The notes under the pieces: model-generated
What the model saw: only the letters and a program-made list of their open reading frames with translations
The model's database searches: none
What the model was told of the DNA's origin: nothing
Part shown: positions 4,749-20,703 of the stretch, one piece after another
How the letters are laid out: each line of letters begins with the position of its first letter
How positions within the stretch are numbered: position 1 is the stretch's first letter
Position numbers and translations under genes: made by a program
DNA from: a bacterium HR28
GTDB taxonomy: Bacteria > Chloroflexota > Chloroflexia > Thermomicrobiales > Thermomicrobiaceae
Direction of reading: 5' to 3'
Assembly (NCBI GenBank): GCA_002898255.1
Contig: BEIE01000002.1
Location: forward strand, 62,001-126,000
Length of the DNA: 64,000 nucleotides

Positions 4749-6842
4749 CTACCGCAGACGAAACCGCTTGTTCACCACATAGTCCATGACGATGTACTCA
4801 CCAAGATGGTCGGGCGTCGCGAAGAAGGCACGTCCTTTGTTGATCCGTGTCATCTCGTTGACAAAGCTTGCCAAATAGGGGCTCCGTTCCAGCATGAAGG
4901 TATTGATCACAATCTCCTCGCGTGTACAGCGAGCGACCTCCTTCAAAGTCTCCTGGAAGGTCTGGTACGTCGGCGGATAGGAGAAGCGCACTTGCTCACC
5001 ATCGAAATAAGCAGTCGGTTCCCCATCCGTGATCAAGATGATCTGACGCGTCCCGCCGCGATGTCGCGAGAGCAATTGCCGCGCCAGCATGAATCCATGC
5101 TGCATGTTTGTCCCATAGTTGTATTCGTCCCAAGTGATGTGCGGCAGCTCCTCCGGCGTGAGCACCGAAGCCAGGTACGAGAAGCCGATGATGTACAGCG
5201 TGTCACGGGGAAATTGCGTCCGAATCAAGCTGTCCAGCGCCAATGCTACCTTCTTCGCCGCGAGGAAGCAGCCGTTGTAGAGCATCGACCGGCTCATGTC
5301 CACCATTAACACGGTTGCCGCACGACTCGTCGACTCCGTGCGGAAGACCTCAAAGTCAGCCGGCTGCAACCGCACCGGCGTCCCCGGTCCTTCTCGCTGC
5401 ACGGCATTCATAACTGTTCGCGGAAGGTGCAGCAAGAACGGGTCACCAAATTCGTAGGGCTTCGTCTCTTCGATCGGCTCCCCGCCACGCCCGCTCCGCT
5501 CGATCTGGTGTTGTCCGAAGCGGTCACGCTTCAGGTGTTGGAAGATCTCCCGAAGCGCCTTCTGTCCAATCTTCCGGATTGCTCGCGGCGTCAGTTCGTA
5601 CCCGCGTCGTGTCCGCTGGATGTACCCAGCCTCCTCGAGCAGTCGCGTGATCTGCCGCAGTGCCTCGAGCTGGGCAGCGAGCTCGTCACCGTACAGCTCA
5701 CGCAGCCGCTCCAGATCTACTCGCCCCAGATCGCGCCAGTCGCGCACCCCCTCGAGCTGCTCCTCGATCTCTTGCATGGCCCGCAACTGCTCCATGAGGC
5801 GCAGGGCCTGTCCCAGCGTGAGTTCCTCACTCCCGCTAAACGGCTGAGCCTGCCGATACGGGTTGTCTGGCATCAGCTGCCCGAGCAGCCGGCCCAGCTG
5901 TCGGAGCTCACGCTGAAGCTCGGGATCGCGGAGCGCTGCATCCAGTGCCTCTTCCAACTGCTGGCGCATCTCCGGCGGAAGTGAGTCCAACAGGCTCTGC
6001 ATCGCCGCCATCTGTCGCGCCAGGTGATCCAGCAGCTCCTCCACACTGTCGAAGTCGCGGCCGAAATAGTGACCCCAGCGATGCTTGAACCGTTCGATAT
6101 CTGGCTGCCCACCACGCGCATGCTCTTGCAAAAGCTCATTGAGGTCGCGCAGCATCTGCCGGAGCTCGCTAATCGCTTCCGGCGTCAGGTTCTGAATCGC
6201 CTGTTGGAGTCCCTGGAACGTCTGCTCCAGGATCTGTCGCTGCAGCGAAGCAAGGAGTTCCTGGAATTTACGCCGTGCCTCCGGGTCCATGAACTCGTAC
6301 TCGCTCAGCGCGCGGATCCGCCCAGCCGGATCTGGCGGCAGCTGGTCCAAGAAGGCTAGCTTCTGCTGCGCCATTCGCTCGAGCAGCCGCTGCAGCGCTG
6401 GATCGGGCGGACTCATCTCCTCCGCCCCCGTCTCGCCCGCGCTCTCGTTCTCTCCTTCTCGTGCTCCTTGCGCCTGCTGCTCTTGGGCGCGAGCCAGTCG
6501 TTCTCGTCCCTCTTGCACGCGCCGCTCGATCCCCGCCCGTTCGGTCTGGATGACATCCTCCAGTCGGCGAGTCAGATCCTCAAGCACCGACCCCGGGTCA
6601 TAGCGCTGCAGTAGCTGTCGTCTCTGCTCCCGGAGCTGCTCTAGGAGTTCCCGGAACCCCGGCATGCGGGCATCCGGCCGATCAATGCCCCACCGGAAGA
6701 GGCGCTGGAGAGCGCGATTGACGTCTCCTTCCGCCAGGAGGTCGTCGGCCATCGCCTCCAGGAGTTCCTCAGCGGTGAATGCGTCAATGTTCTGCGTTCC
6801 GTCCCAGCGAGAGTAGCGAAACCGGTATGGCGTGGTCTCCAT
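4749..6842 (-). CDS. VWA-domain protein (CoxE/BchD-like partner of a MoxR ATPase)
   Basis: A 697-residue soluble protein. The first about 450 residues are largely charged, Glu/Arg/Gln-rich and predicted helical or coiled coil, with several leucine- and arginine-rich repeats. The C-terminal about 200 residues form a von Willebrand A domain with a complete MIDAS start (Asp515-x-Ser517-x-Ser519 in VDMSRS), a TNMQHGF segment carrying the MIDAS threonine, and LITDGEPT. Such proteins act with MoxR/ChlI-type AAA+ ATPases to insert metals or remodel client proteins. Here the ATPase gene lies directly upstream with a 24-base gap. The client is not evident from the neighbourhood. Confidence 0.88.
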   Translation of the reverse strand: METTPYRFRYSRWDGTQNIDAFTAEELLEAMADDLLAEGDVNRALQRLFRWGIDRPDARMPGFRELLEQLREQRRQLLQRYDPGSVLEDLTRRLEDVIQTERAGIERRVQEGRERLARAQEQQAQGAREGENESAGETGAEEMSPPDPALQRLLERMAQQKLAFLDQLPPDPAGRIRALSEYEFMDPEARRKFQELLASLQRQILEQTFQGLQQAIQNLTPEAISELRQMLRDLNELLQEHARGGQPDIERFKHRWGHYFGRDFDSVEELLDHLARQMAAMQSLLDSLPPEMRQQLEEALDAALRDPELQRELRQLGRLLGQLMPDNPYRQAQPFSGSEELTLGQALRLMEQLRAMQEIEEQLEGVRDWRDLGRVDLERLRELYGDELAAQLEALRQITRLLEEAGYIQRTRRGYELTPRAIRKIGQKALREIFQHLKRDRFGQHQIERSGRGGEPIEETKPYEFGDPFLLHLPRTVMNAVQREGPGTPVRLQPADFEVFRTESTSRAATVLMVDMSRSMLYNGCFLAAKKVALALDSLIRTQFPRDTLYIIGFSYLASVLTPEELPHITWDEYNYGTNMQHGFMLARQLLSRHRGGTRQIILITDGEPTAYFDGEQVRFSYPPTYQTFQETLKEVARCTREEIVINTFMLERSPYLASFVNEMTRINKGRAFFATPDHLGEYIVMDYVVNKRFRLR

Positions 6843-10976: not shown

Positions 10977-12197
10977 ATGAGCCTTGTCGTGGACACCGTG
11001 CGTCAACCGCGCCACCTTCGCCTGGTAACCCTCGGGCTCAGTGTCCTCGCACTCCTCACGTCCCTTATCTGGCTCACCAACCGCAGTGAGCGATGGACGC
11101 TTGGCAGCTGGACCGATCACTCGGCAACAGGGAAGCCGATAGTCTTGGCCCAGACGAACTCCACATTCATTGCCATCGATCCGTACACCGGAACCGTCGT
11201 ATCCCAACATCCAGGTGGTGCCGCTCTCTTAGCTGCCAGTGCCAATGGCCAACAGGTGATCGCTGCGACCGACGATGAGCTCATTGTCTACCGGCTCCCT
11301 GACTGGGCAGTCGCGTATCGTTTGCCTCTCGATAACCAACTCCCGAACCTTTACCAACTCGCGACCTACCACCCTGATTTGCAACGGGCCAAGCCACGGC
11401 CGGTCACCTTGGAAGTTGATCCCACTGGACGCTACGCCGCTGTCGGTTTCGTCTCTATGGGCGAGCACCCTGATCCAGCCTTCCTGGACACTCCCCCGTG
11501 GATCCTCTGGGTCACTGCCGTTGACCTGCAGCATGGCACTTGGTTGCCTTGGATTCACCCCCTTCCTGGCACCGACTGGGTCTACATCGTCCCAACTCCC
11601 GAAAAACTGTTCCTCGCCGGTAGCCCCATTGCCGCCACGTCCCAACCGCTCTCTCTTGGGACACTCCTCGCGCTCGATCCGACTACCGGCCAGGTGCAGA
11701 GTCAGTTGACGCTTCCCGGGCTGTCACCTGTTCCCTTGAACACCTCTGAAGGGGGACGCCATCCACGTATCGCCGCAGTCCGTTTCTTCGGTGACCAGCT
11801 GCTGGTCGCCACTGAGCAGCTTGAGGTGTTCGTTGTCGATCCAGGCACGCTCCAGGTGACCCGTCAAGTCGCTCCGCTCAGCCCGACCATCCTGGTCCGG
11901 GGCGCACAGGTGTGGTTGACGACTGAGCGTCTCGTCGCGCTGACACAGACCTCTGAGTTGATCCAAGCCGACCTCGTCAGTGGGCAAATTGTCGCCCGCC
12001 GTTCCCTCCCAACAGACTGGACAGCCGAGCTCGTCACCTTCCTGCCTGACGAGCACGTTGCGCTGTTGCTCCTCTCCAATGGCCTTCCCGGCTGCCTAGT
12101 CCGTGTTCCGTTCCAGGGAGAGATCGAGCAGCTCCTCTGTGGTCTCGACACGAATCTCTACGAGCGCCGGTTCGCTGTGACCGGGGGGATCGGATGA
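10977..12197 (+). CDS. Membrane-anchored beta-propeller protein, heavy-chain-like 1
   Basis: A 406-residue protein with one N-terminal membrane helix (LVTLGLSVLALLTSLIWLT, about residues 16-35) and an extracytoplasmic domain of repeated WD/YVTN-like blades (FIAIDPYTGTVV, TLEVDPTGRYAAVGF, LLALDPTTGQVQ, VFVVDPGTLQV). The blade plan and position directly before an amine dehydrogenase light-chain-like gene suggest the role of the MauB/AauB heavy chain. Sequence identity to those is not obvious by eye, so this is an inference from context. Start chosen at 10977 because of AAAGGAGC upstream; the frame is open to 10935. Its TGA overlaps the ATG of the next leader (ATGATGA). It shares block PPWILWVTAVDLQHGTW and a late Cys pair with its two paralogues. 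Confidence 0.75.
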   Translation: MSLVVDTVRQPRHLRLVTLGLSVLALLTSLIWLTNRSERWTLGSWTDHSATGKPIVLAQTNSTFIAIDPYTGTVVSQHPGGAALLAASANGQQVIAATDDELIVYRLPDWAVAYRLPLDNQLPNLYQLATYHPDLQRAKPRPVTLEVDPTGRYAAVGFVSMGEHPDPAFLDTPPWILWVTAVDLQHGTWLPWIHPLPGTDWVYIVPTPEKLFLAGSPIAATSQPLSLGTLLALDPTTGQVQSQLTLPGLSPVPLNTSEGGRHPRIAAVRFFGDQLLVATEQLEVFVVDPGTLQVTRQVAPLSPTILVRGAQVWLTTERLVALTQTSELIQADLVSGQIVARRSLPTDWTAELVTFLPDEHVALLLLSNGLPGCLVRVPFQGEIEQLLCGLDTNLYERRFAVTGGIG

Positions 12198-12608
12198 TGA
12201 GATTGACCCGGCGCACCACTCTGCACCTTGAGCACCCTCGCCACTGCACTTGTCAACCTGCTTGTCCCGCTGCCAGCCAATGCCCAGCTCACCTGCAGCG
12301 ACTGGCGTTTCTGTGGTCACTGTGGCTGTCGCTGTACCTGCCGGGGCGGTGGTGACTCGACCTGTCCGTCCGGAAGCTCACCTGGAGGGGCGTGGTACGT
12401 CTGCTGCCGTGATACCCAAGGGCGCTTCTGGCTCGTCCGCTACCGCGATTGCTGCCGGCCCAGACAGCCAGGTGAGACATCCTGCCCCAGCCCGCTCAGT
12501 GGCTGCCCCTCCTCCTGTGCCTGCCAGGACGGTTGTCCCCAACCACATTGGTGCCCAACCGGCTACTGTGCCGTCTGTACCCAGACGCAGATCTGGGCAA
12601 CCTGTTGA
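12194..12608 (+). CDS. Amine dehydrogenase light-chain-like protein 1 (TTQ type), leader frameshifted
   Basis: The mature part (frame from 12228, 126 codons from a TTG) closely follows the methylamine dehydrogenase light chain. Matching elements are CSDWRFC, CTCRGGG, TCPSG, then Trp56 in GGAWYVCC, Asp74 in RYRDCC and Trp108 in HWC. The two tryptophans align with those that form tryptophan tryptophylquinone (betaTrp57 and betaTrp108 in Paracoccus). About 20 cysteines are present. Upstream, ATG at 12194/12197 overlaps the previous stop and opens a different frame encoding MMRLTRRTTLH, a twin-arginine start. The two frames join if one base is removed near 12224-12230, so the assembled gene has a one-base insertion within its Tat signal or is truly frameshifted. 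Confidence 0.82.
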
Positions 12609-12714
12609 TCAGGTGTGACCAATGACACTACTCGACCTTACCAACGCAGCCCCGTCGAACTCCACTGGAAAAAACCTCTTTTCGCCCACGTCTACTGCTG
12701 GCCATTCTGCGAGA

Positions 12715-12742
12715 GGTTGCTCGCGAAGCACCTGGAGCAACC
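12715..12742 (+). other. 8-bp hairpin between light-chain-like genes 1 and 2
   Basis: GGTTGCTC at 12715-12722 pairs with GAGCAACC at 12735-12742 across 12 bases, 107 bases after the light-chain 1 stop and 64 before the next start. It could be an RNA-processing or partial termination site that sets different expression of the pairs. Confidence 0.35.
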
Positions 12743-12805
12743 GGCGCTGTCTGCTGAGCAAGCTCACGTCCGTCGGAAAAGATAGAGCTAGGGAGAACTT
12801 TTCCG

Positions 12806-13252
12806 ATGTCGCACTGGAATGCTCCGATCGGTGCCGGCCGGGAAAAGCGTTCCACTCGGCGCAGCTGGGTGCAGCGCCTGGCTGTCGTGTTACTGGCCAT
12901 TGGGGCGACTTTCAGCGATCACCCGCCCCTCTCCGCCCAGGCGAACTGTGGCCAGTGGCACCGGTGCGGTATGTGTGGTTGTTTGTGCTCTTGCCTTGGC
13001 GGGAGCGATACCGCCTGCCCACCAGGAACGTCGCCAGGCGGCGCATGGTGGGTCTGCTGTTACGCGAGCGGCCGTTGGTGGTTGATTCGCTATCTCGACT
13101 GCTGTGGCCCGAAAAACAGCCAGCCTGCCTGCCCATCCGGCTGCTCCTGCAACCAGCGGTGTGGCCAGCCACCGGCCAACCAAAACTGGTGCCCGAACCC
13201 AGAAAGCAACGGAGCCTACTGTACCCGCGCCCAGGTCTGGTCACAGTGTTAA
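12806..13252 (+). CDS. Amine dehydrogenase light-chain-like protein 2 (TTQ type)
   Basis: A 148-residue secreted protein. The leader carries a Tat-like STRRSWVQRLAVVLLAIG (Arg18-Arg19) and is probably cleaved near SAQA-N (about residue 46). The mature part matches the MauA pattern: CGQWHRC, CSCLGGSD, ACPPG, Trp81 in GGAWWVCC, Asp98 in RYLDCCG and Trp128 in QNWC. Trp81 and Trp128 are the expected TTQ pair and Asp98 the expected catalytic base (betaAsp76 of Paracoccus). Position of betaAsp32 is a cysteine. The ATG has a GGGAGAAC ribosome site. It is followed 42 bases later by heavy-chain-like 2. Activity cannot be judged from sequence. Confidence 0.85.
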   Translation: MSHWNAPIGAGREKRSTRRSWVQRLAVVLLAIGATFSDHPPLSAQANCGQWHRCGMCGCLCSCLGGSDTACPPGTSPGGAWWVCCYASGRWWLIRYLDCCGPKNSQPACPSGCSCNQRCGQPPANQNWCPNPESNGAYCTRAQVWSQC

Positions 13253-13294
13253 CGCCGTGGTGAGAGCGAGGAAAGGCATGACGGGAGGAACTTT

Positions 13295-14596
13295 ATGAAA
13301 GCAGTCGCCACGCTCACTCCGTCTCTGAGGCCTAGTGCGCGAGGAGCCCTGGCTGCACTGGTCGTCTTGCTGCTGGCTCTCGCAGCACTGCTCTTCCTAC
13401 GCCCGCTCTCGGGCTCCCATCGAGCTTCGAGCGGATCGCTCGAAGCGGGTACTCCGCTTCTCCTCGCACCAGTCGGAGAAGCACCAAGCCCTTCCCTCGC
13501 CGTGCAGCACACCGGATTAGTACTCCTGGATGCCCGGACAGGCAGCGTCCGCAACCGTTTCACCTTCTCTGAGCCCAATGAGGTCATCCGCGGCTATCTC
13601 CTCCCAGGAGGAGTCCAGGTGCTCCTTTACCGTGCACCGCTGGAAACGAACGCGACCACATACCCGAGTCTCGAACTCTGGCGCGTGAGCCATTGGACAG
13701 TCGAGCGCAGCGTCCCTATCACCCCTGACATTGCACCCGTTCGCATCCTCGCTGCCCAGTATCCCTCAACGGCGGGCCAGACTCCCACTGTTCTTGATTT
13801 GGCCAGCGACCCGGCCGGCCACTGGGTGGCTGTGGCCTTTTGGTCCATGGCCACTCCATACTCTGACGGCACACGCAGCCAATTGGTCTGGGTCACTTCT
13901 CTTGACCTCCAAACAGGACAATGGGCACCATGGGTCTACCCACTCCCCTCAAGCCAGACGGTTTCGCTTCTTGCGTTGTCCGACCGTATCCTTGTGCTTG
14001 CCCACACTCTGCGCACCACCACGCGCCACACGGTTGCCAATCTTGTTTCCCTTGATCCCAGAAACGGGACGGTCCTCGCTGAGCTGCCGCTGGAAAGTTG
14101 GTCTGTGCAGGGCAAGCCGCTCGACGAGGACCCCTCGAGTCCTCACAACACTTTCTCCGCTGCCCTCGCGCCTCAGGTCTGGAACAATCGCATCCTGGTT
14201 GTCACCGATGACCTCGAACTCTTCCTCATCGACCCCAGGAGCCTGAGACTGGTAGAACACCGCCCACCGCTCGCCGATCGCCTCGTTGTCGGCGGTCGCC
14301 CGTACCTGATTGGAGACCTCCTCGTTCTTGTTGGTCAGTCGCTCTGGGTTCTCGACGTCAGCAACTGGCGAGTGATGACCACTTTTCCGTTACCAACCAT
14401 TCCGGAAGGGAACTGGTTACTCGCTGGCGTAGACACTGCGCAGCGGACAGCCTTCCTCCTTAACACGAAGGAAGGTTGCTTGCGGAACCTCGACCTGAGC
14501 AGCGGAACCCTCAGCGAGCCGTTGCACTGCAACCTCGCGCTCGATTACCCGGCTCCGCTCTTCGGCTGGCCAGCATTTGCCACCGGCGCGCCTTGA
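13295..14596 (+). CDS. Membrane-anchored beta-propeller protein, heavy-chain-like 2
   Basis: A 433-residue paralogue of the protein at 10977. An N-terminal membrane helix (ALAALVVLLLALAALLFL, about residues 18-35) leads into propeller blades. Family blocks shared by all three paralogues are LVWVTSLDLQTGQWAPW, DDLELFLIDPRSL and, near the end, GCLRNLDLSSGTLSEPLHC, a cysteine pair that may be a disulfide. The ATG follows GGGAGGAAC. Its order relative to its light chain (light then heavy) is opposite to pair 1. A heavy-chain role is inferred from context. Confidence 0.76.
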   Translation: MKAVATLTPSLRPSARGALAALVVLLLALAALLFLRPLSGSHRASSGSLEAGTPLLLAPVGEAPSPSLAVQHTGLVLLDARTGSVRNRFTFSEPNEVIRGYLLPGGVQVLLYRAPLETNATTYPSLELWRVSHWTVERSVPITPDIAPVRILAAQYPSTAGQTPTVLDLASDPAGHWVAVAFWSMATPYSDGTRSQLVWVTSLDLQTGQWAPWVYPLPSSQTVSLLALSDRILVLAHTLRTTTRHTVANLVSLDPRNGTVLAELPLESWSVQGKPLDEDPSSPHNTFSAALAPQVWNNRILVVTDDLELFLIDPRSLRLVEHRPPLADRLVVGGRPYLIGDLLVLVGQSLWVLDVSNWRVMTTFPLPTIPEGNWLLAGVDTAQRTAFLLNTKEGCLRNLDLSSGTLSEPLHCNLALDYPAPLFGWPAFATGAP

Positions 14597-14765
14597 GCTT
14601 TCGCCGGAATCGCTCGTGCCTTCCCTATGGACCTAGCCGCAGTCCACTTTGACCGGGGAACGGATGAGTTTCACCAAGCGGCACGGTCCATCCTTGATCT
14701 CGTGCTCTGGCCGCGCGTCGCGCGGGTACGGTGGGCAGCCAGCTTACTCTAGCCGACGCAGCGAG

Positions 14766-14791
14766 GGACACGCCCACTTTTGGGCGTGTCC
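14766..14791 (+). terminator. 11-bp hairpin after heavy-chain-like 2
   Basis: GGACACGCCCA (14766-14776), a CTTT loop and the exact complement at 14781-14791, 170 bases past the stop at 14596. No T-tract follows. It probably ends or attenuates the first two pairs, making pair 3 with MauE/MauD a separately controlled unit. The surrounding 14597-14930 interval has no gene. Confidence 0.6.
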
Positions 14792-14930
14792 ACCAACTGT
14801 CTCTGCACTGTGCCCTCTTCGATTTCATCGTGCAACCGAGAAGATGCGCCTGCGACGGCGTGCTGCCTGTCTGATTCCTCAACCGAGATACGTCAAAATT
14901 TGCGAGACGAGTAAGTAGGCAAGGTATGAG

Positions 14931-15353
14931 ATGAAGCGCCGCTCCCCTGCTCAGCAACACATCCTAACGACCCGGCGCGACTGGATGCGGAGACTCCTGG
15001 CAGCCTTTGCCGGGACTGTCGCATTTGTGACCCAACCAGCACCTATGGTGGCCCAGAGCTGTCAGGATTGGTTCCGCTGTAACCAGTGGGGGTGCCTCTG
15101 CTCATGTCGCGGTGGTAGCGATTATTCCTGTCCCCCGGGAACGACGAGCAGTACGCAAGCTTGGTTCTCCTGTTGTTACGATCAGGTTCGTCGCAAGCTC
15201 TTCCTCATCCGCTACATCGATTGCTGCCAATCGACTCCGCCGCCAGCCTGTCCTTCGGGGTGCTCCTGTGCCCGGGGGTCATATCAGCCGAACTGGTGCG
15301 GTAATGGACGTCACGTCGTCTGTACTCGCGCCGTACTGGTCAATGTGTGCTGA
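14931..15353 (+). CDS. Amine dehydrogenase light-chain-like protein 3 (TTQ type)
   Basis: A 140-residue secreted protein with a clear Tat leader, LTTRRDWMRRLLAAFAG (Arg15-Arg16), and likely cleavage around VAQS (residues 40-43). The mature part has CQDWFRC, CSCRGGSD, SCPPG, Trp78 in TQAWFSCC, Asp97 in RYIDCC and Trp122 in PNWC. Trp78 and Trp122 align with the TTQ tryptophans. The residue matching betaAsp32 of methylamine dehydrogenase is Trp53. Of the three light chains this one has the fewest extra cysteines. It lies 50 bases before the propeller-MauE fusion. Ribosome site is weak (AGGTATGAG). Confidence 0.85.
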   Translation: MKRRSPAQQHILTTRRDWMRRLLAAFAGTVAFVTQPAPMVAQSCQDWFRCNQWGCLCSCRGGSDYSCPPGTTSSTQAWFSCCYDQVRRKLFLIRYIDCCQSTPPPACPSGCSCARGSYQPNWCGNGRHVVCTRAVLVNVC

Positions 15354-15403
15354 AGGACGACCGCTCGCTGCTAAGACGAGTGCCATGAGAAAGGAGCCCA
15401 GCG

Positions 15404-17188
15404 ATGCAGATGAGTTGGCTGTACGCAACACCCCTGAGAGAGAGACGAACGGCGGTCATCGTCCCTCTGTTCTTGTCCATCATGCTCATACTTTTGAGTC
15501 TTGTCGCTTCCTCTGCTGCCCGCGTGTCGGGAACGTCCGCCGCGAACCCGATCCTCCTCAGCCCCGCCGGCACGGATGGACAAGAACTGCTCATCCTCGA
15601 TCCGCGCTCCGGTACCGTTCTCAACCGAATCCCAAACCAGAATTACGGAATTTACCAAGCCTTTGTGTCACCACGCGGAGACCGGGCGCTCATTGAGTAC
15701 GTCGAGGAACGAGAGGGAACGCCATCCATTCGACTTGAGCTGCGGACTCTTCCGGATTGGTCTCTCCTGGCACAGTTTCCGGTCGACTACACGATCCCAC
15801 CACTCGCGCCGCTCGCAGCCGAGGCACCCGCCGGGGCGAACCCGTCGCTCTTCACCGTTGCCTTCTCGAGTGACGGGGATCTTGCCGCGGTCGCCTTCTT
15901 CACCGGCCAAGACTGGCCGACCCTCGTGGTGACTACCCTGGACCTTGCCCACCAGCGGTGGGCTGACTGGGCTCTGACCGTTCCACGTTCCAGTTACGCC
16001 TGGCTCTTCCCATTAGAGACCCAACTTCTGGTTGTGTCCAGAGCGATGGTTCCGCTACTTTCGGGAGATCACGCCTCCATCTACTCCCTTGACCCAGTAA
16101 CCGGCGCTGTCCGCGCGGAGCTGGGTATCCGCCTGCACCGATCGCTGTTGCCCGAGCGGGGTCAAGACGTGCCGAGCACCTCGCCCGGAGTCATCGCGGT
16201 GCACCTCGATGGACCGTACCTCCGTATTCTGACGGATGATCTCACGCGGTTTAGCGTCGATGTTGGGACACTCACCCTTGTCCAAACCGATCCGGCTCTC
16301 TACGACGAACTCGCCGCTCTCAAGACCGTTTTCACTCCACACTACACCGTTGCCGCAGTGCGCCCTGACGAAATCGTCCTCATTGACAACCAGCGCTGGC
16401 AGATCACACAACAAACAAAACTTTCCTCCGACATTATGTCGTGGGAACTTGTGGGTCCCGACCCATCTCGGCCTGTTGTCTACATTGCCAGCGAGGAGGA
16501 TCAATGCCTCCGCACGCTGGACCTCTCCACCCTCGCGCTGTCCCAGCCACTTGTGTGTGCTTTATTCCTCCCCGTCGATTGGCGACACTTTTACGGTTGG
16601 CCTGATTACGCCCCAGGAGTCGTCCAGTCAGCACCTGTGCTCGCGACAACATCGTGGATGGAGAACCTTGCCTCTTTGGCTACCGCGGTCCTCGCAGCTA
16701 CTTTTGCTCTTGCGGCTCTCGGGAAAACTCTCGCCTGGCGCATAAGCGTCCAACAGCTCGGCACCATTGTCCCACAACTGAGCCGGCGAGCTAACCTGAT
16801 CCTTGCTGGACTGGTTGCCGCTGAGACAGGAACCACGGTTTTGTTGCTCTTGCCTGTGACCTCTCGTTTCGGCCTCGCCAGTGCAACAGGCCTTCTCCTC
16901 ATCTTTCTGGGTGTCTCTCTCTTCGCTGTCCGGCGGGTACCACTGCAGCCCTGCCCCTGCTTTGGGTCACTCGGTCCAGCCCTAACTGGCCGAGCCGTCA
17001 TCGTCCGTAACCTATTCCTCCTTGGCATCGCCTTCCTCGCGTGGTCACATCCTCAAGCTCCGATACTGCCCCAGATGCTTCTTGGCCTGCTGGCGGTGCT
17101 GGTCGCACTCAACGTCAGCCGCCTCGCAGCAGGGGTTACGGTCATTCGCACTGCAAGGAGGGGGACAACGTTCGATCATGCTGCCTGA
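15404..17188 (+). CDS. Beta-propeller (heavy-chain-like 3) fused to a MauE domain
   Basis: A 594-residue protein. It has an N-terminal membrane helix (about residues 18-36), an extracytoplasmic propeller to about residue 410 that is paralogous to the genes at 10977 and 13295 (shared LVVTTLDLAHQRWADW and QCLRTLDLSTLALSQPLVC), then about four membrane helices forming a MauE domain. The MauE signature CPCFG with redox-type Cys517 and Cys519 is followed by GRAVIVRN, as in the family. MauE and MauD are needed for stable, disulfide-bonded methylamine dehydrogenase light chain in Paracoccus and Methylobacterium. Here the maturation factor and the presumed structural partner are one polypeptide. The stop overlaps mauD. 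Confidence 0.82.
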   Translation: MQMSWLYATPLRERRTAVIVPLFLSIMLILLSLVASSAARVSGTSAANPILLSPAGTDGQELLILDPRSGTVLNRIPNQNYGIYQAFVSPRGDRALIEYVEEREGTPSIRLELRTLPDWSLLAQFPVDYTIPPLAPLAAEAPAGANPSLFTVAFSSDGDLAAVAFFTGQDWPTLVVTTLDLAHQRWADWALTVPRSSYAWLFPLETQLLVVSRAMVPLLSGDHASIYSLDPVTGAVRAELGIRLHRSLLPERGQDVPSTSPGVIAVHLDGPYLRILTDDLTRFSVDVGTLTLVQTDPALYDELAALKTVFTPHYTVAAVRPDEIVLIDNQRWQITQQTKLSSDIMSWELVGPDPSRPVVYIASEEDQCLRTLDLSTLALSQPLVCALFLPVDWRHFYGWPDYAPGVVQSAPVLATTSWMENLASLATAVLAATFALAALGKTLAWRISVQQLGTIVPQLSRRANLILAGLVAAETGTTVLLLLPVTSRFGLASATGLLLIFLGVSLFAVRRVPLQPCPCFGSLGPALTGRAVIVRNLFLLGIAFLAWSHPQAPILPQMLLGLLAVLVALNVSRLAAGVTVIRTARRGTTFDHAA

Positions 17189-17753
17189 TTGGCTTCCGTT
17201 GACTCTACTCGTGGTCACCTGGATCGCGCTGACAGCCGTCATTCGCATGACTGTCCAATTGGCCCAACGAGTAGGGCGACTCGAGCAGCTCGAGATGGAC
17301 GCACGAGGGCACGAGCAAGCAGTGCACGGCATCGGTGAGCCCGTGCCACCGCTTGCGGTCACCACCAGGGAGGGACACCAGCTCATCCTCGGCCAACCCC
17401 CTGTAGCCCCCGCTGTGGTGATTGCACTCAGCGGTCGCTGTCCGCCATGTCAGCCTTTCCGCGACCAACTGACAACACTCCTCGCTTGGCTTCGCCAATA
17501 CGGTGTGTTTCCAGTGCTCGCCCTGCCGACTGGTGAACCGCCCGAACAGTGGCCAGCAGGGTACGCATTCCTCACCGGAGAGAGCGCCCTTTCCGCACTT
17601 GGCCTCACGCAGTTCCCGTCATCCCTTCTGATTGATCGTGAAGGAATTCTGCGTGGCCGCGCACCTCTCCGGTCCCCTGAGGATCTCCTTGAGATCATCT
17701 CAATCGTCTTGCTCGGCCTCTCTCCAACTCAGGGAAGGACTGCCGCGCAATGA
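17178..17753 (+). CDS. mauD: MauD-like thioredoxin-fold disulfide protein
   Basis: A 191-residue membrane-anchored protein. The N-terminal helix is WLPLTLLVVTWIALTAVI, and a thioredoxin-like domain carries Cys88-Pro-Pro-Cys91 in ALSGRCPPCQPF. The GIGEPVPPLAVTTREG segment before it is characteristic of MauD. MauD is thought to form or isomerise the six disulfides of the amine dehydrogenase light chain. The frame is open to 17022, but the ATG at 17178 overlaps the end of the MauE fusion (11-base overlap) and starts with the membrane helix, so it is the likely start. With three light chains holding up to 20 cysteines each, one MauD/MauE set probably serves all. Confidence 0.85.
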   Translation: MLPDWLPLTLLVVTWIALTAVIRMTVQLAQRVGRLEQLEMDARGHEQAVHGIGEPVPPLAVTTREGHQLILGQPPVAPAVVIALSGRCPPCQPFRDQLTTLLAWLRQYGVFPVLALPTGEPPEQWPAGYAFLTGESALSALGLTQFPSSLLIDREGILRGRAPLRSPEDLLEIISIVLLGLSPTQGRTAAQ

Positions 17754-17821
17754 TTCCAAGTCTTCTGCCGCTCGCCGCAGCTTGTGGACTTGCAGCACTC
17801 TGGTCGCCTTGAGGCTACTCC

Positions 17822-18409
17822 ATGGTCGACGTGCTCGGCCCGACGATCCGACAATCAACTTTGTGGCGCCGCATCCAGCTGGCGCTCCTCCACTGTGGGG
17901 GTACAGTGCTGGGCGGTCTCTTTTGCGGCCTTCTGTTGCGTTGGCTTGGCCAGGTGCTGCTTCCCTTCGAGCTTGAGAGGACCGCTCATACCTGGCTAAC
18001 GGTCGTCGTGCTCGTCCTTGCCCTAGTCGCTGACCTGACGGTAGGCCGGTGGCGAACACGGAGCCTCATCCACCGTCAGGTCCCGCCTCGTCTCTTTGCA
18101 AGGGGAGCAGCATGTGCCAGCTTCGCGTGGGGTCTTGAGCTCGGGATTGGCCTGAGCACCCGCTGGCCTTCTCTCCAGCTTGTTGGGCTCGCAGCACTGT
18201 CTCTCCTGACCGGTAATCCGCTCAGCAGCGCTCTGCTCTTCGGTAGCTTTGGCTTGACACGTGGCCTCGCCACCATCACTGGAGCTTGGCTTCTCTGGGG
18301 CAGGCACACATCGCCAGGAGCCACCTGGCTGATAGCTGGCCAGCGTCGCCTACGACTCCTGCCTTCCCTCGCTGCTGTCGGCTGCATCACCCTCCTTGTC
18401 TACACTTAA
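17822..18409 (+). CDS. Integral membrane protein of unknown function in the TTQ-like cluster
   Basis: A 195-residue protein with about five to six hydrophobic segments (for example LLHCGGTVLGGLFCGLLLRW, LTVVVLVLALVADLTV and LQLVGLAALSLLTG) and a basic C-terminal loop. I do not recognise a family. Position after mauD suggests a membrane role in the same system, comparable in place to MauF of classical clusters, but no sequence match is claimed. The ATG follows TTGAGGCTACTCC. It begins 68 bases after mauD and ends just before the sigma factor. Confidence 0.68.
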   Translation: MVDVLGPTIRQSTLWRRIQLALLHCGGTVLGGLFCGLLLRWLGQVLLPFELERTAHTWLTVVVLVLALVADLTVGRWRTRSLIHRQVPPRLFARGAACASFAWGLELGIGLSTRWPSLQLVGLAALSLLTGNPLSSALLFGSFGLTRGLATITGAWLLWGRHTSPGATWLIAGQRRLRLLPSLAAVGCITLLVYT

Positions 18410-18443: not shown

Positions 18444-19193
18444 ATGCGACACGCAAAGACAACCCTCTGGGTTTTTGCGGCTTTCTACCTTGCTCTTCTT
18501 CTGACGTCTTGGTCCGTGACTGAATCCTCACTCGACTGCGAACCTCCTCGGTCCTGCCACCAGCATCCCCCACCTCCTCAAGCGAATCCCTGCCAACCCA
18601 GAATCGCCACCAAACGTCGCCGCAGAGAGGAGCAAAGCGAGCAAGACGACCTGTCGGAACGCGCGCTGATTGAGCAAGCCATCGCCGGCGATTCGCAGGC
18701 TTTCGGCTCTCTCGTGGAGCGTTATATGAGTACCGTGAAGGCGTACTTGACCCGACTCGGAGTACCCCAACCCGAGCACGACGATCTGGTTCAGGACGTA
18801 TTTACCAAAGCCTGGTCAGCTCGAGCTCAGCTTCGCGACGTCGAAGCATTCTCCCACTGGCTCTTGACCATCACCCGCCGCTGCTGGATCGACGCATTGC
18901 GCTCCCGCCACGCCGAACAGCGGGCTCTCGAGCGCTGGTTACGTGACCAACTCCGTTGCCCCGGGACACCCGACCCTTCCGACGAGGAAGTCGATCTCCT
19001 CCTCCGGGCGTTCGACGCGCTCCGCCCAGCCGATCGCGAGATACTGCTCCTCCGCTGGGAAGGAGATCGCTCCATCCAGGAACTCGCTTCCCTGCTCGGC
19101 ATCTCACCGACAGCAGCCCAGCGCCGAGCTCACCGCGCACTCTCTCGTCTGCGTGAAATGTTCACACGCTTGAGGCACCAGCCTGGATCGTGA
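18444..19193 (+). CDS. ECF-type RNA polymerase sigma factor with an N-terminal membrane-like segment
   Basis: Sigma-70 region 2 spans about residues 70-150 (FGSLVERYMSTVKAYL, HDDLVQDVFTKAW) and region 4 about residues 185-240 (LRPADREILLLRW, IQELASLLGISPTAAQRRAH). These domains direct RNA polymerase to specific promoters. The open frame extends upstream into a hydrophobic segment (TTLWVFAAFYLALLLTSW, residues 6-23) and a Pro/Cys-rich linker, which is unusual for a sigma factor. The ATG at 18444 has AAGGGG upstream. There is no ATG or GTG between this segment and region 2, so either the protein is membrane-tethered or the sigma factor starts at a rare codon. It may control the preceding cluster. 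Confidence 0.78.
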   Translation: MRHAKTTLWVFAAFYLALLLTSWSVTESSLDCEPPRSCHQHPPPPQANPCQPRIATKRRRREEQSEQDDLSERALIEQAIAGDSQAFGSLVERYMSTVKAYLTRLGVPQPEHDDLVQDVFTKAWSARAQLRDVEAFSHWLLTITRRCWIDALRSRHAEQRALERWLRDQLRCPGTPDPSDEEVDLLLRAFDALRPADREILLLRWEGDRSIQELASLLGISPTAAQRRAHRALSRLREMFTRLRHQPGS

Positions 19194-19611
19194 ATCAGCC
19201 ACGCACAGGCCACACAGCGCCACCCGGCGCGATTTCTCGCCCCCCCACCAGTCCTTGCAATTGGTCCGCCACGCTTTTCTCCTCACGACGCTCGTGATCG
19301 GTCACAGCTCTGGCACTCCGGTCTCCCAGACCACCGACCGTTCGTGGTGTTCGCCGTCGTCTCCGTTGTCTTCCTTCGCAAGGCTCTACGCCCCTGCCGC
19401 AGTCGTGGTCCGAGTACCCCGCGCACGGCTGCCCCGACCGGACGAAAGGCGTGCCGTGGACTTCGCAAGCACGCCCGACCCAGCTAATGGCTCGTGGGCT
19501 GAACCGCTCATACCTTGACGAACTCGAGTGAACCAGCGCCCTGCTGTCGTGCTGAGAAAGGCTGGTATACTCGCCCCAAGGTCCGTTCTGTCAACACGCC
19601 AGGGACGAAGC
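19194..19611. other. Gene-poor interval before the DoxX-type gene
   Basis: About 420 bases without a supported gene or clear hairpin. The end carries an AGGGACGAAG ribosome site for the next gene. Confidence 0.45.
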
Positions 19612-20703
19612 ATGAAGCACTCGCAACGGGCACATCGGTGGATTTTCGTAATCTCCTTCGCACTCGTCCTTGCGCTCTATCCCGCCAGTACGAGTGCGCA
19701 CGTGCGGTGGTTCGTGCCCGAAGGCCTGGAACTTCGTCCCCCTGAATGGCAGCTTTTCTGGCGCTGGCCAACAGCCGCTGTTGTTGCGACCAGCGCGCTT
19801 CTCTGGCTTGCCTTGCGCGCACTACAGCACCTGGTCGGGAGTCGTCATTGGCCGAATCCCCCACTGCTCGCCAGCATGGAACCCTGTGCCACACGCGTGT
19901 TAGCGCTACATGCCGGGATCAGCTTGGTCTGGTTCGCCTACTAGCGGGAACTCTTCGCGCCGCCGCTGACACTCCCAAACTCAGTGCTCGGCTGGCTGCT
20001 CCTGGCAGCGACTATTGTCGTGGCCTTCACCTTTATTTCAGGACTCTTTGACCGCGCCGGAGCACTTCTCTTGATCGTCCTGTACGGCCTTGCCTTCGTC
20101 GTGTTCCCTCCGGTCGCGGTGCTCGAGCAGCTGCACTTTCTCGGGATCGCGCTTGTACTGCTTGTCCTTGGTCAGACGATCCCACCTGTTCGAGTGGCAA
20201 GGCACCTTATCGGCTTGAGCCGGTACGAACGCCAGTCGGTCGCTGCGCTCCGCATCCTGACCGGTTCCGCATTGCTCATCACGGCATTCACCGAAAAGCT
20301 GCTCAACCCCGAACTCAGCACCGTCTTCCTTGCGCAGTACGCGCATTTCAACGTGTTGCGGAGTCTCTTCGGTTGGAGCTGGTTCTCAGACCGATTCTTT
20401 GGCGACCTTGCGGGCATCGTCGAGGCAACCATCGGGATCCTGCTCATCTCAGGTGTCCTCACCCGCGTCGTCATACTCGCGATGTGGGTCCCGTTTAACC
20501 TGACCGTGCCGCTCTTGCCACCCGTCGAGCTGCTCGGTCATCTCCCGATCTTCGGTATCACGTACCTCTTACTTCTCTACGGTTCTGGGGTATCTCCGCA
20601 GACAGCTCTGCGCTGGCTCCAGCCGGCGTTCACCGGGGAGCTCGCCGCAGCGCACCAGCGGCTTGGCGAAGATCCGACCACACAAAGAGACCACTCAACG
20701 TGA
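19612..20703 (+). pseudogene. DoxX-like membrane protein interrupted by an in-frame TAG
   Basis: One continuous frame is broken only by TAG at 19942-19944. The first part (110 codons) has a signal-like helix and the sequence AHVRWFVPEGLELRPPEW, then a second helix. After the TAG the same frame continues without a shift (RELFAPPLTLPNSVLGWLLL) for another 253 codons with about six membrane helices, including ALRILTGSALLITAFTEKLL and GIVEATIGILLISGVLTRVVI, which fit the DoxX/DoxD group. A single CAG-to-TAG change would explain it. Either the gene is inactive, two parts are made separately (an ATG/GTG restart such as GTG near 19984 is possible), or there is a sequencing error. Confidence 0.7.

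Follow-up and report, generated by a model that had tools for sequence, protein, structure and literature searches.

A divergent mau-type locus with several light/heavy chain pairs and no detectable MauG in Thermomicrobium

Among protein-derived cofactors, TTQ is a textbook example of one whose biogenesis depends on a dedicated enzyme, the di-haem protein MauG. A locus in a hot-spring bacterium of the genus Thermomicrobium, for which an initial annotation proposed three light/heavy chain pairs accompanied by maturation factors, raises the question of whether it encodes amine dehydrogenases that carry this cofactor. The window analysed here is a stretch of 64,000 nucleotides from contig BEIE01000002.1 of a 3.12-Mb genome (8 contigs, estimated to be 99.6% complete), whose close relatives are Thermomicrobium sp. 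CFH 73360 (L016/L025) and Bacterium HR27 (L024). The genes of the locus all lie on the forward strand between citrate synthase and an ECF sigma factor, a setting kept across Thermomicrobium. Judged by its gene content, the locus is a complete but very divergent mauFBEDA set.

Three genes encode MADH light-chain-like proteins, namely La (12194..12608), Lb (12806..13252) and Lc (14931..15353), of which Lb and Lc carry a Tat-type signal. The Pfam HMM search that the initial annotation had suggested as a check placed all of them above the curated PF02975 cut-off of 25 bits (27.7, 38.1 and 42.3 bits for La, Lb and Lc, respectively), which excludes the first of the two refuting conditions set there, a lack of any match to the light-chain family. 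These are the only PF02975 places in the whole 3.12-Mb genome, and the family was absent from the 14 control genomes searched. A chance match to the light-chain family was ruled out, because the scores exceed the cut-off and are confined to one locus. Moreover, the matches of the light chains among PDB sequences were exclusively AADH/MADH light chains (E 1.3e-12 for Lb against the AADH light chain). A light-chain AF2 model was of poor quality (pLDDT 57); its best PDB matches were AADH/MADH light chains at Z 5.3. None of the proteins reached the cut-off of 196.85 for the TIGR02659 equivalog (methylamine dehydrogenase small subunit), the best score being 49.9 bits for Lc.

Next, the light chains were aligned to P. 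denitrificans MauA, whose numbering is used for light-chain residues. The results showed that Trp57, Asp76, Trp108 and the canonical cysteines are retained in La, Lb and Lc, with the cysteine equivalence near Cys86/Cys88 being ambiguous in the alignment. The two tryptophans named in the initial annotation, Trp81 and Trp128, are the counterparts of Trp57 and Trp108 in the protein at 12806 (Lb). The annotation was thus right about the tryptophans and the canonical cysteines, but its "catalytic aspartate" is one of two: the active-site pair Asp32 and Asp76 is present in none of the three light chains, which keep Asp76 alone and have Cys (La), Cys (Lb) or Trp (Lc) at position 32. Among 17 Chloroflexota sequences, Trp57 and Asp76 were found in all and Trp108 in 16, while position 32 was occupied by C, W, Q, H, G, S, R or N and in no case by D. 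The single loss of Trp108 observed was in Lb of HR27, where Leu takes its place (QNLCPN; L021:2201-2518); this may be an assembly error. Each light chain of the window contains 16-20 cysteines; Cys34 is an extra cysteine in all Thermomicrobium sequences and Cys60 in 17/17 Chloroflexota sequences, and Cys109 is replaced by Ser in a light chain of the Thermomicrobium genome G123. Changes of Asp32 in MADH, reportedly studied by Jones in 2005, are said to impair both TTQ formation and substrate affinity. The natural loss of a residue tied to these two functions points to a different active site.

As read in the assembly, La is probably broken in the window strain. The ATG at 12194, where the initial annotation placed its first secreted protein, overlaps the H1 stop, but its frame runs into a stop codon and differs from that of the mature light chain. 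The mature frame (12285-12608) opens at TTG 12228 at the earliest, without a twin-arginine n-region, and secretion from a TTG 12228 signal peptide lacking a positive n-region is unlikely. The CFH 73360 strain keeps the ancestral start of the La signal peptide (MTRLSRRTTLLGTLSALATALVNL), relative to which 5 nt have been deleted inside the signal peptide in the window. La of that strain has its own, separate deletion of 44 nt, and a remnant alone is left in G124; the lesions in these three strains are independent losses. Because the mature La codons are still at a dN/dS of 0.08, the loss looks recent. Three intact pairs were therefore ruled out by the La frameshift: two heavy/light pairs of the annotation's three are intact, but in the pair of H1 and La, which is probably decaying in the window strain, the light chain is probably defective.

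Each light chain adjoins one of three paralogous, membrane-anchored beta-propellers, as the initial annotation described, and its gene order (heavy-light, light-heavy, light-heavy) was also correct. H1 (10977..12197), the intact, MADH/AADH heavy-chain-like partner of La, adjoins it in the window, in CFH 73360 and in T. roseum. H2 (13295..14596) is the partner of Lb, and H3 (15404..17188), in which the propeller spans about 15404-16650, is that of Lc. An N-terminal hydrophobic segment is found in all three propellers, and H1 and H3 are 27-30% identical to H2. No match to PF06433 (MADH/AADH heavy chain) was found in H1, H2 or H3 up to E 1, and H1 gave a weak PQQ_2 match. A profile of the heavy-chain family retrieved nothing specific from PDB sequences; compared with MauB/AauB by hhalign, it matched at E 2.6e-13, versus a probability of 5.5% for a PQQ sugar-dehydrogenase control. 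H2, the sole propeller folded, gave an AF2 model with a pLDDT of 80.1, whose top structural matches were AADH/MADH heavy chains (Z 24.3, rmsd 3.5, 311 aligned). AADH/MADH heavy chains and QHNDH beta filled the best 23 structural rows (Z 24.3 to 21.7), and unrelated propellers followed from Z 21.7 down; in the top rows, the lead over generic propellers is some 2-3 Z units, which is moderate but consistent. Taken together, the model and the profile match assign H2 to the MADH-type propeller fold. With dN/dS values of 0.24-0.27, H1, H2, H3 and MauF are under purifying selection.

Among the maturation genes, a MauD-like thioredoxin-fold protein with a CPPC motif is encoded downstream (17178..17753), its ATG at 17178 overlapping the 3' end of H3-MauE, and its family matched MauD with an hhalign E of 1.9e-27, using a profile that left out the window copy and contains relatives 43-59% identical to it. 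MauE, which had been listed as another factor downstream, has no gene of its own here and instead forms the C-terminal domain of H3 (PF07291 E 3.4e-15, residues 419-547, at about 16658-17044), a fusion retained in five other Thermomicrobium genomes. The last gene (17822..18409), left unnamed in the initial annotation, encodes an integral membrane protein of 195 aa that we assign to MauF by similarity: it matched P. denitrificans MauF in hhalign (probability 97.8, E 7.8e-13) and has the QVP..R block in common with it, while three unrelated proteins of the Paracoccus region, as negative controls, gave E 0.34-0.96. In three carrier genomes outside the genus (G029, G091 and G375), MauE-, MauD-, light-chain-, MauF- and propeller-like genes are clustered as separate genes; the G091 light chain is frameshifted.

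We then examined the genomes for MauG. An HMM search with PF03150 found no protein of the MauG/CCP family in the source genome, in Thermomicrobium G119 (62% complete), G120, G122, G123 and G124, or in G091, and P. denitrificans MauG as a protein query found none in the source genome, G120, G122, G124, G091 and G375. The MauG query matched in G029 alone, on a contig other than that of the light chain. The search method works, since HMM matches arise in control genomes and in G029. In all, MauG was undetectable in 8/9 carrier genomes examined (one of them 62% complete), and in two of the three Chloroflexota carriers outside Thermomicrobium. In MADH, the initial hydroxylation of Trp is regarded as autocatalytic, while MauG is held to introduce the second oxygen and to form the cross-link (PMC7876137). 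Cofactor formation in this system must be either MauG-independent or absent. Electron acceptors are possible, as the source genome has four blue-copper places and four CBB3-type cytochrome c places.

To see how the locus varies, we surveyed further genomes. PF02975 is rare in the phylum, occurring in 8/158 genomes of the class and 5/400 of a phylum sample; in plasmid records, it was found at 35 places in 31 records, with T. roseum alone accounting for five. A search for related loci among genome contigs returned two. The T. roseum DSM 5159 megaplasmid (NC_011961, L028) carries the same locus, also between citrate synthase and a sigma factor. It differs in having more copies (five light-chain places and six propellers); just one of its light chains bears that name in the genome record, and one La copy is frameshifted. 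Sister species thus have varying copy numbers and repeated decay. A fourth propeller type, common to T. roseum and G122, has no adjoining light chain (L028:11305-12675; L017:7382-8779). In Thermomicrobium sp. CFH 73360, both MauD and Lb are frameshifted (L016:9024-9679 and 13503-13948). The distance matrices of light and heavy chains were correlated over 15 pairs (Mantel r 0.87; permutation within genomes, which groups the data coarsely, gave P 0.014), and so were those of the Lc-H3 pairs only (r 0.62, permutation P 0.0006). This co-variation supports cognate pairs rather than exchangeable subunits. Together with the copy number in sister species, it backs the family of paired quinoproteins that the initial annotation suggested; nothing in the results speaks for or against its alternative, a multi-subunit assembly. 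Our literature search found no link between Thermomicrobium and methylamine dehydrogenase, and neither "amine" nor "methylamine" occurs in the T. roseum genome paper (PMC2615216).

Comparison with characterized systems places the locus close to, yet apart from, each of them. The P. denitrificans mau operon (mauFBEDA, amicyanin, mauJ and mauG; NC_008688, L029) has its MauA, MauB fold, MauE, MauD and MauF all matched here. The light chains have Trp57, Trp108, Asp76 and the canonical cysteines in common with P. denitrificans MauA, but lack Asp32 and possess extra cysteines (34, 60 and C-terminal). Unlike that operon, the Thermomicrobium locus holds A and B in several paired copies, its heavy chains are TM-anchored and one of them carries MauE as a fusion, and there is neither an amicyanin gene in the cluster nor MauG in the genome. 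AADH (aauBEDA; P. aeruginosa RW109 plasmid, L030; Alcaligenes faecalis structures) provides the best PDB match of the light chain and the top structural rows for H2, and its RW109 cluster is likewise without mauG in the region compared; however, it has a single A/B pair, Asp at position 32 and a separate MauE. The beta propeller of QHNDH, an enzyme with a CTQ cofactor, is among the best fold matches to H2. The QHNDH gamma subunit contains thioether cross-links and depends on QhpD/QhpG (PMC7876137), whereas the light chains here match PF02975. Membership of the QHNDH group was ruled out, as Pfam/NCBIfam scans of the cluster found PF02975 light chains and no QHNDH gamma family.

Several neighbouring genes were also inspected. 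The ECF sigma factor gene (18444..19193; Sigma70_r2 E 1.1e-14) lies directly after mauF in a synteny conserved in the genus, and is a possible regulator. Its product has an N-terminal hydrophobic segment followed in frame by a Pro-rich and Arg-rich linker and is possibly membrane-tethered; a similar pattern was seen in G122, G124, HR27 and T. roseum. Near the broken light chain of G091, two propellers (L023:2311-3756 and 5128-6570) carry an N-terminal part of about 100 aa before the TM segment and lie each directly behind an ECF sigma gene, possibly representing an anti-sigma/sensor architecture. A DoxX-like gene in the window (19528-20703) is split by an in-frame TAG (19942-19944) where relatives, with a single ORF of about 362 aa, have Gln. 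Elsewhere in the window, a flavin amine oxidase family protein (PF01593; 48644-49999) is unlinked to the locus.

What, then, does the locus encode? The light-chain HMM matches, the profile and fold of the heavy chain, and MauE, MauD and MauF all sustain the kinship with TTQ amine dehydrogenases that the initial annotation claimed. Its further step, function as amine dehydrogenases, is more doubtful: the genome lacks MauG, the light chains have lost Asp32, and none of the proteins lies over the NCBIfam equivalog cut-off. Because all mauFBEDA core parts are present, a quinoprotein dehydrogenase is the best reading, and we hold with moderate confidence that the locus is a divergent operon of the mau type and encodes a small family of such enzymes, paired and facing outward. 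In our best reading, they would make up an expanded, membrane-anchored group of tryptophylquinone dehydrogenases, in which the cofactor either arises independently of MauG or does not form. The heavy chain would be a TM-anchored, outward-facing propeller, on which a cognate light chain, exported via its Tat-type signal and assisted by MauE/MauD in forming its many disulfides, would dock. Trp57 and Trp108 would then be converted to tryptophylquinone, which may oxidise amines with Asp76 as base and pass electrons to a blue copper protein or a c-type cytochrome. Against this reading stand the absence of MauG, the replacement of Asp32, the lack of PF06433 matches, TIGR02659 scores far under the cut-off, and the loss of key residues or reading frames in single strains. 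More tentatively, the locus may represent a Chloroflexota family that makes its tryptophylquinone with neither MauG nor Asp32, and in which several pairs share one maturation set with a heavy-chain-fused MauE.

The absence of MauG and the loss of Asp32 would also fit pairs that keep the MADH scaffold without a tryptophylquinone and work as a disulfide-rich module with an envelope or sensory role, which may be connected with the ECF sigma factor encoded directly downstream; the two related G091 propellers with their N-terminal parts, each after an ECF sigma gene, point the same way. We regard this as rather unlikely: position 32 varies freely, whereas Trp57, Trp108 and Asp76 persist in different paralogues and genera, mauE, mauD and mauF are all retained, and a protein acting as a scaffold alone would have no use for the Trp pair. 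The lesions in La (in the window, CFH 73360, G124 and T. roseum), in MauD and Lb of CFH 73360 and in the DoxX-like gene of the window might instead mark a formerly functional TTQ-type amine dehydrogenase system being lost copy by copy in the genus. Such lesions, however, strike single copies or strains rather than the whole set everywhere, seven genes of the window locus (H1, H2, Lb, Lc, H3-MauE, MauD and MauF) are intact, and dN/dS is well below 1 in the tested intact genes and even in mature La, which makes general decay improbable. Finally, maturation of a TTQ amine dehydrogenase could depend on a highly diverged substitute for MauG encoded away from the locus, such as the two-domain CBB3-type cytochrome c on contig 1 (1038810-1039355), also present in sister genomes. 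This seems very improbable, as the candidate belongs to another cytochrome c family and shows no linkage to the locus; its distance of no more than about 3 kb from a blue copper gene suggests that it functions in respiration.

Overall, the tryptophylquinone dehydrogenase reading draws attention to natural relatives that keep the rest of the mau core, although MauG is undetectable in all but one of the carrier genomes examined and one of the two active-site aspartates is no longer constrained. Should the quinone form in them, another route to make a TTQ-type cofactor exists; otherwise, the scaffold has taken on a new role. With its paired copies, the genus also provides a natural set of thermostable proteins in which substrate divergence could be tested.
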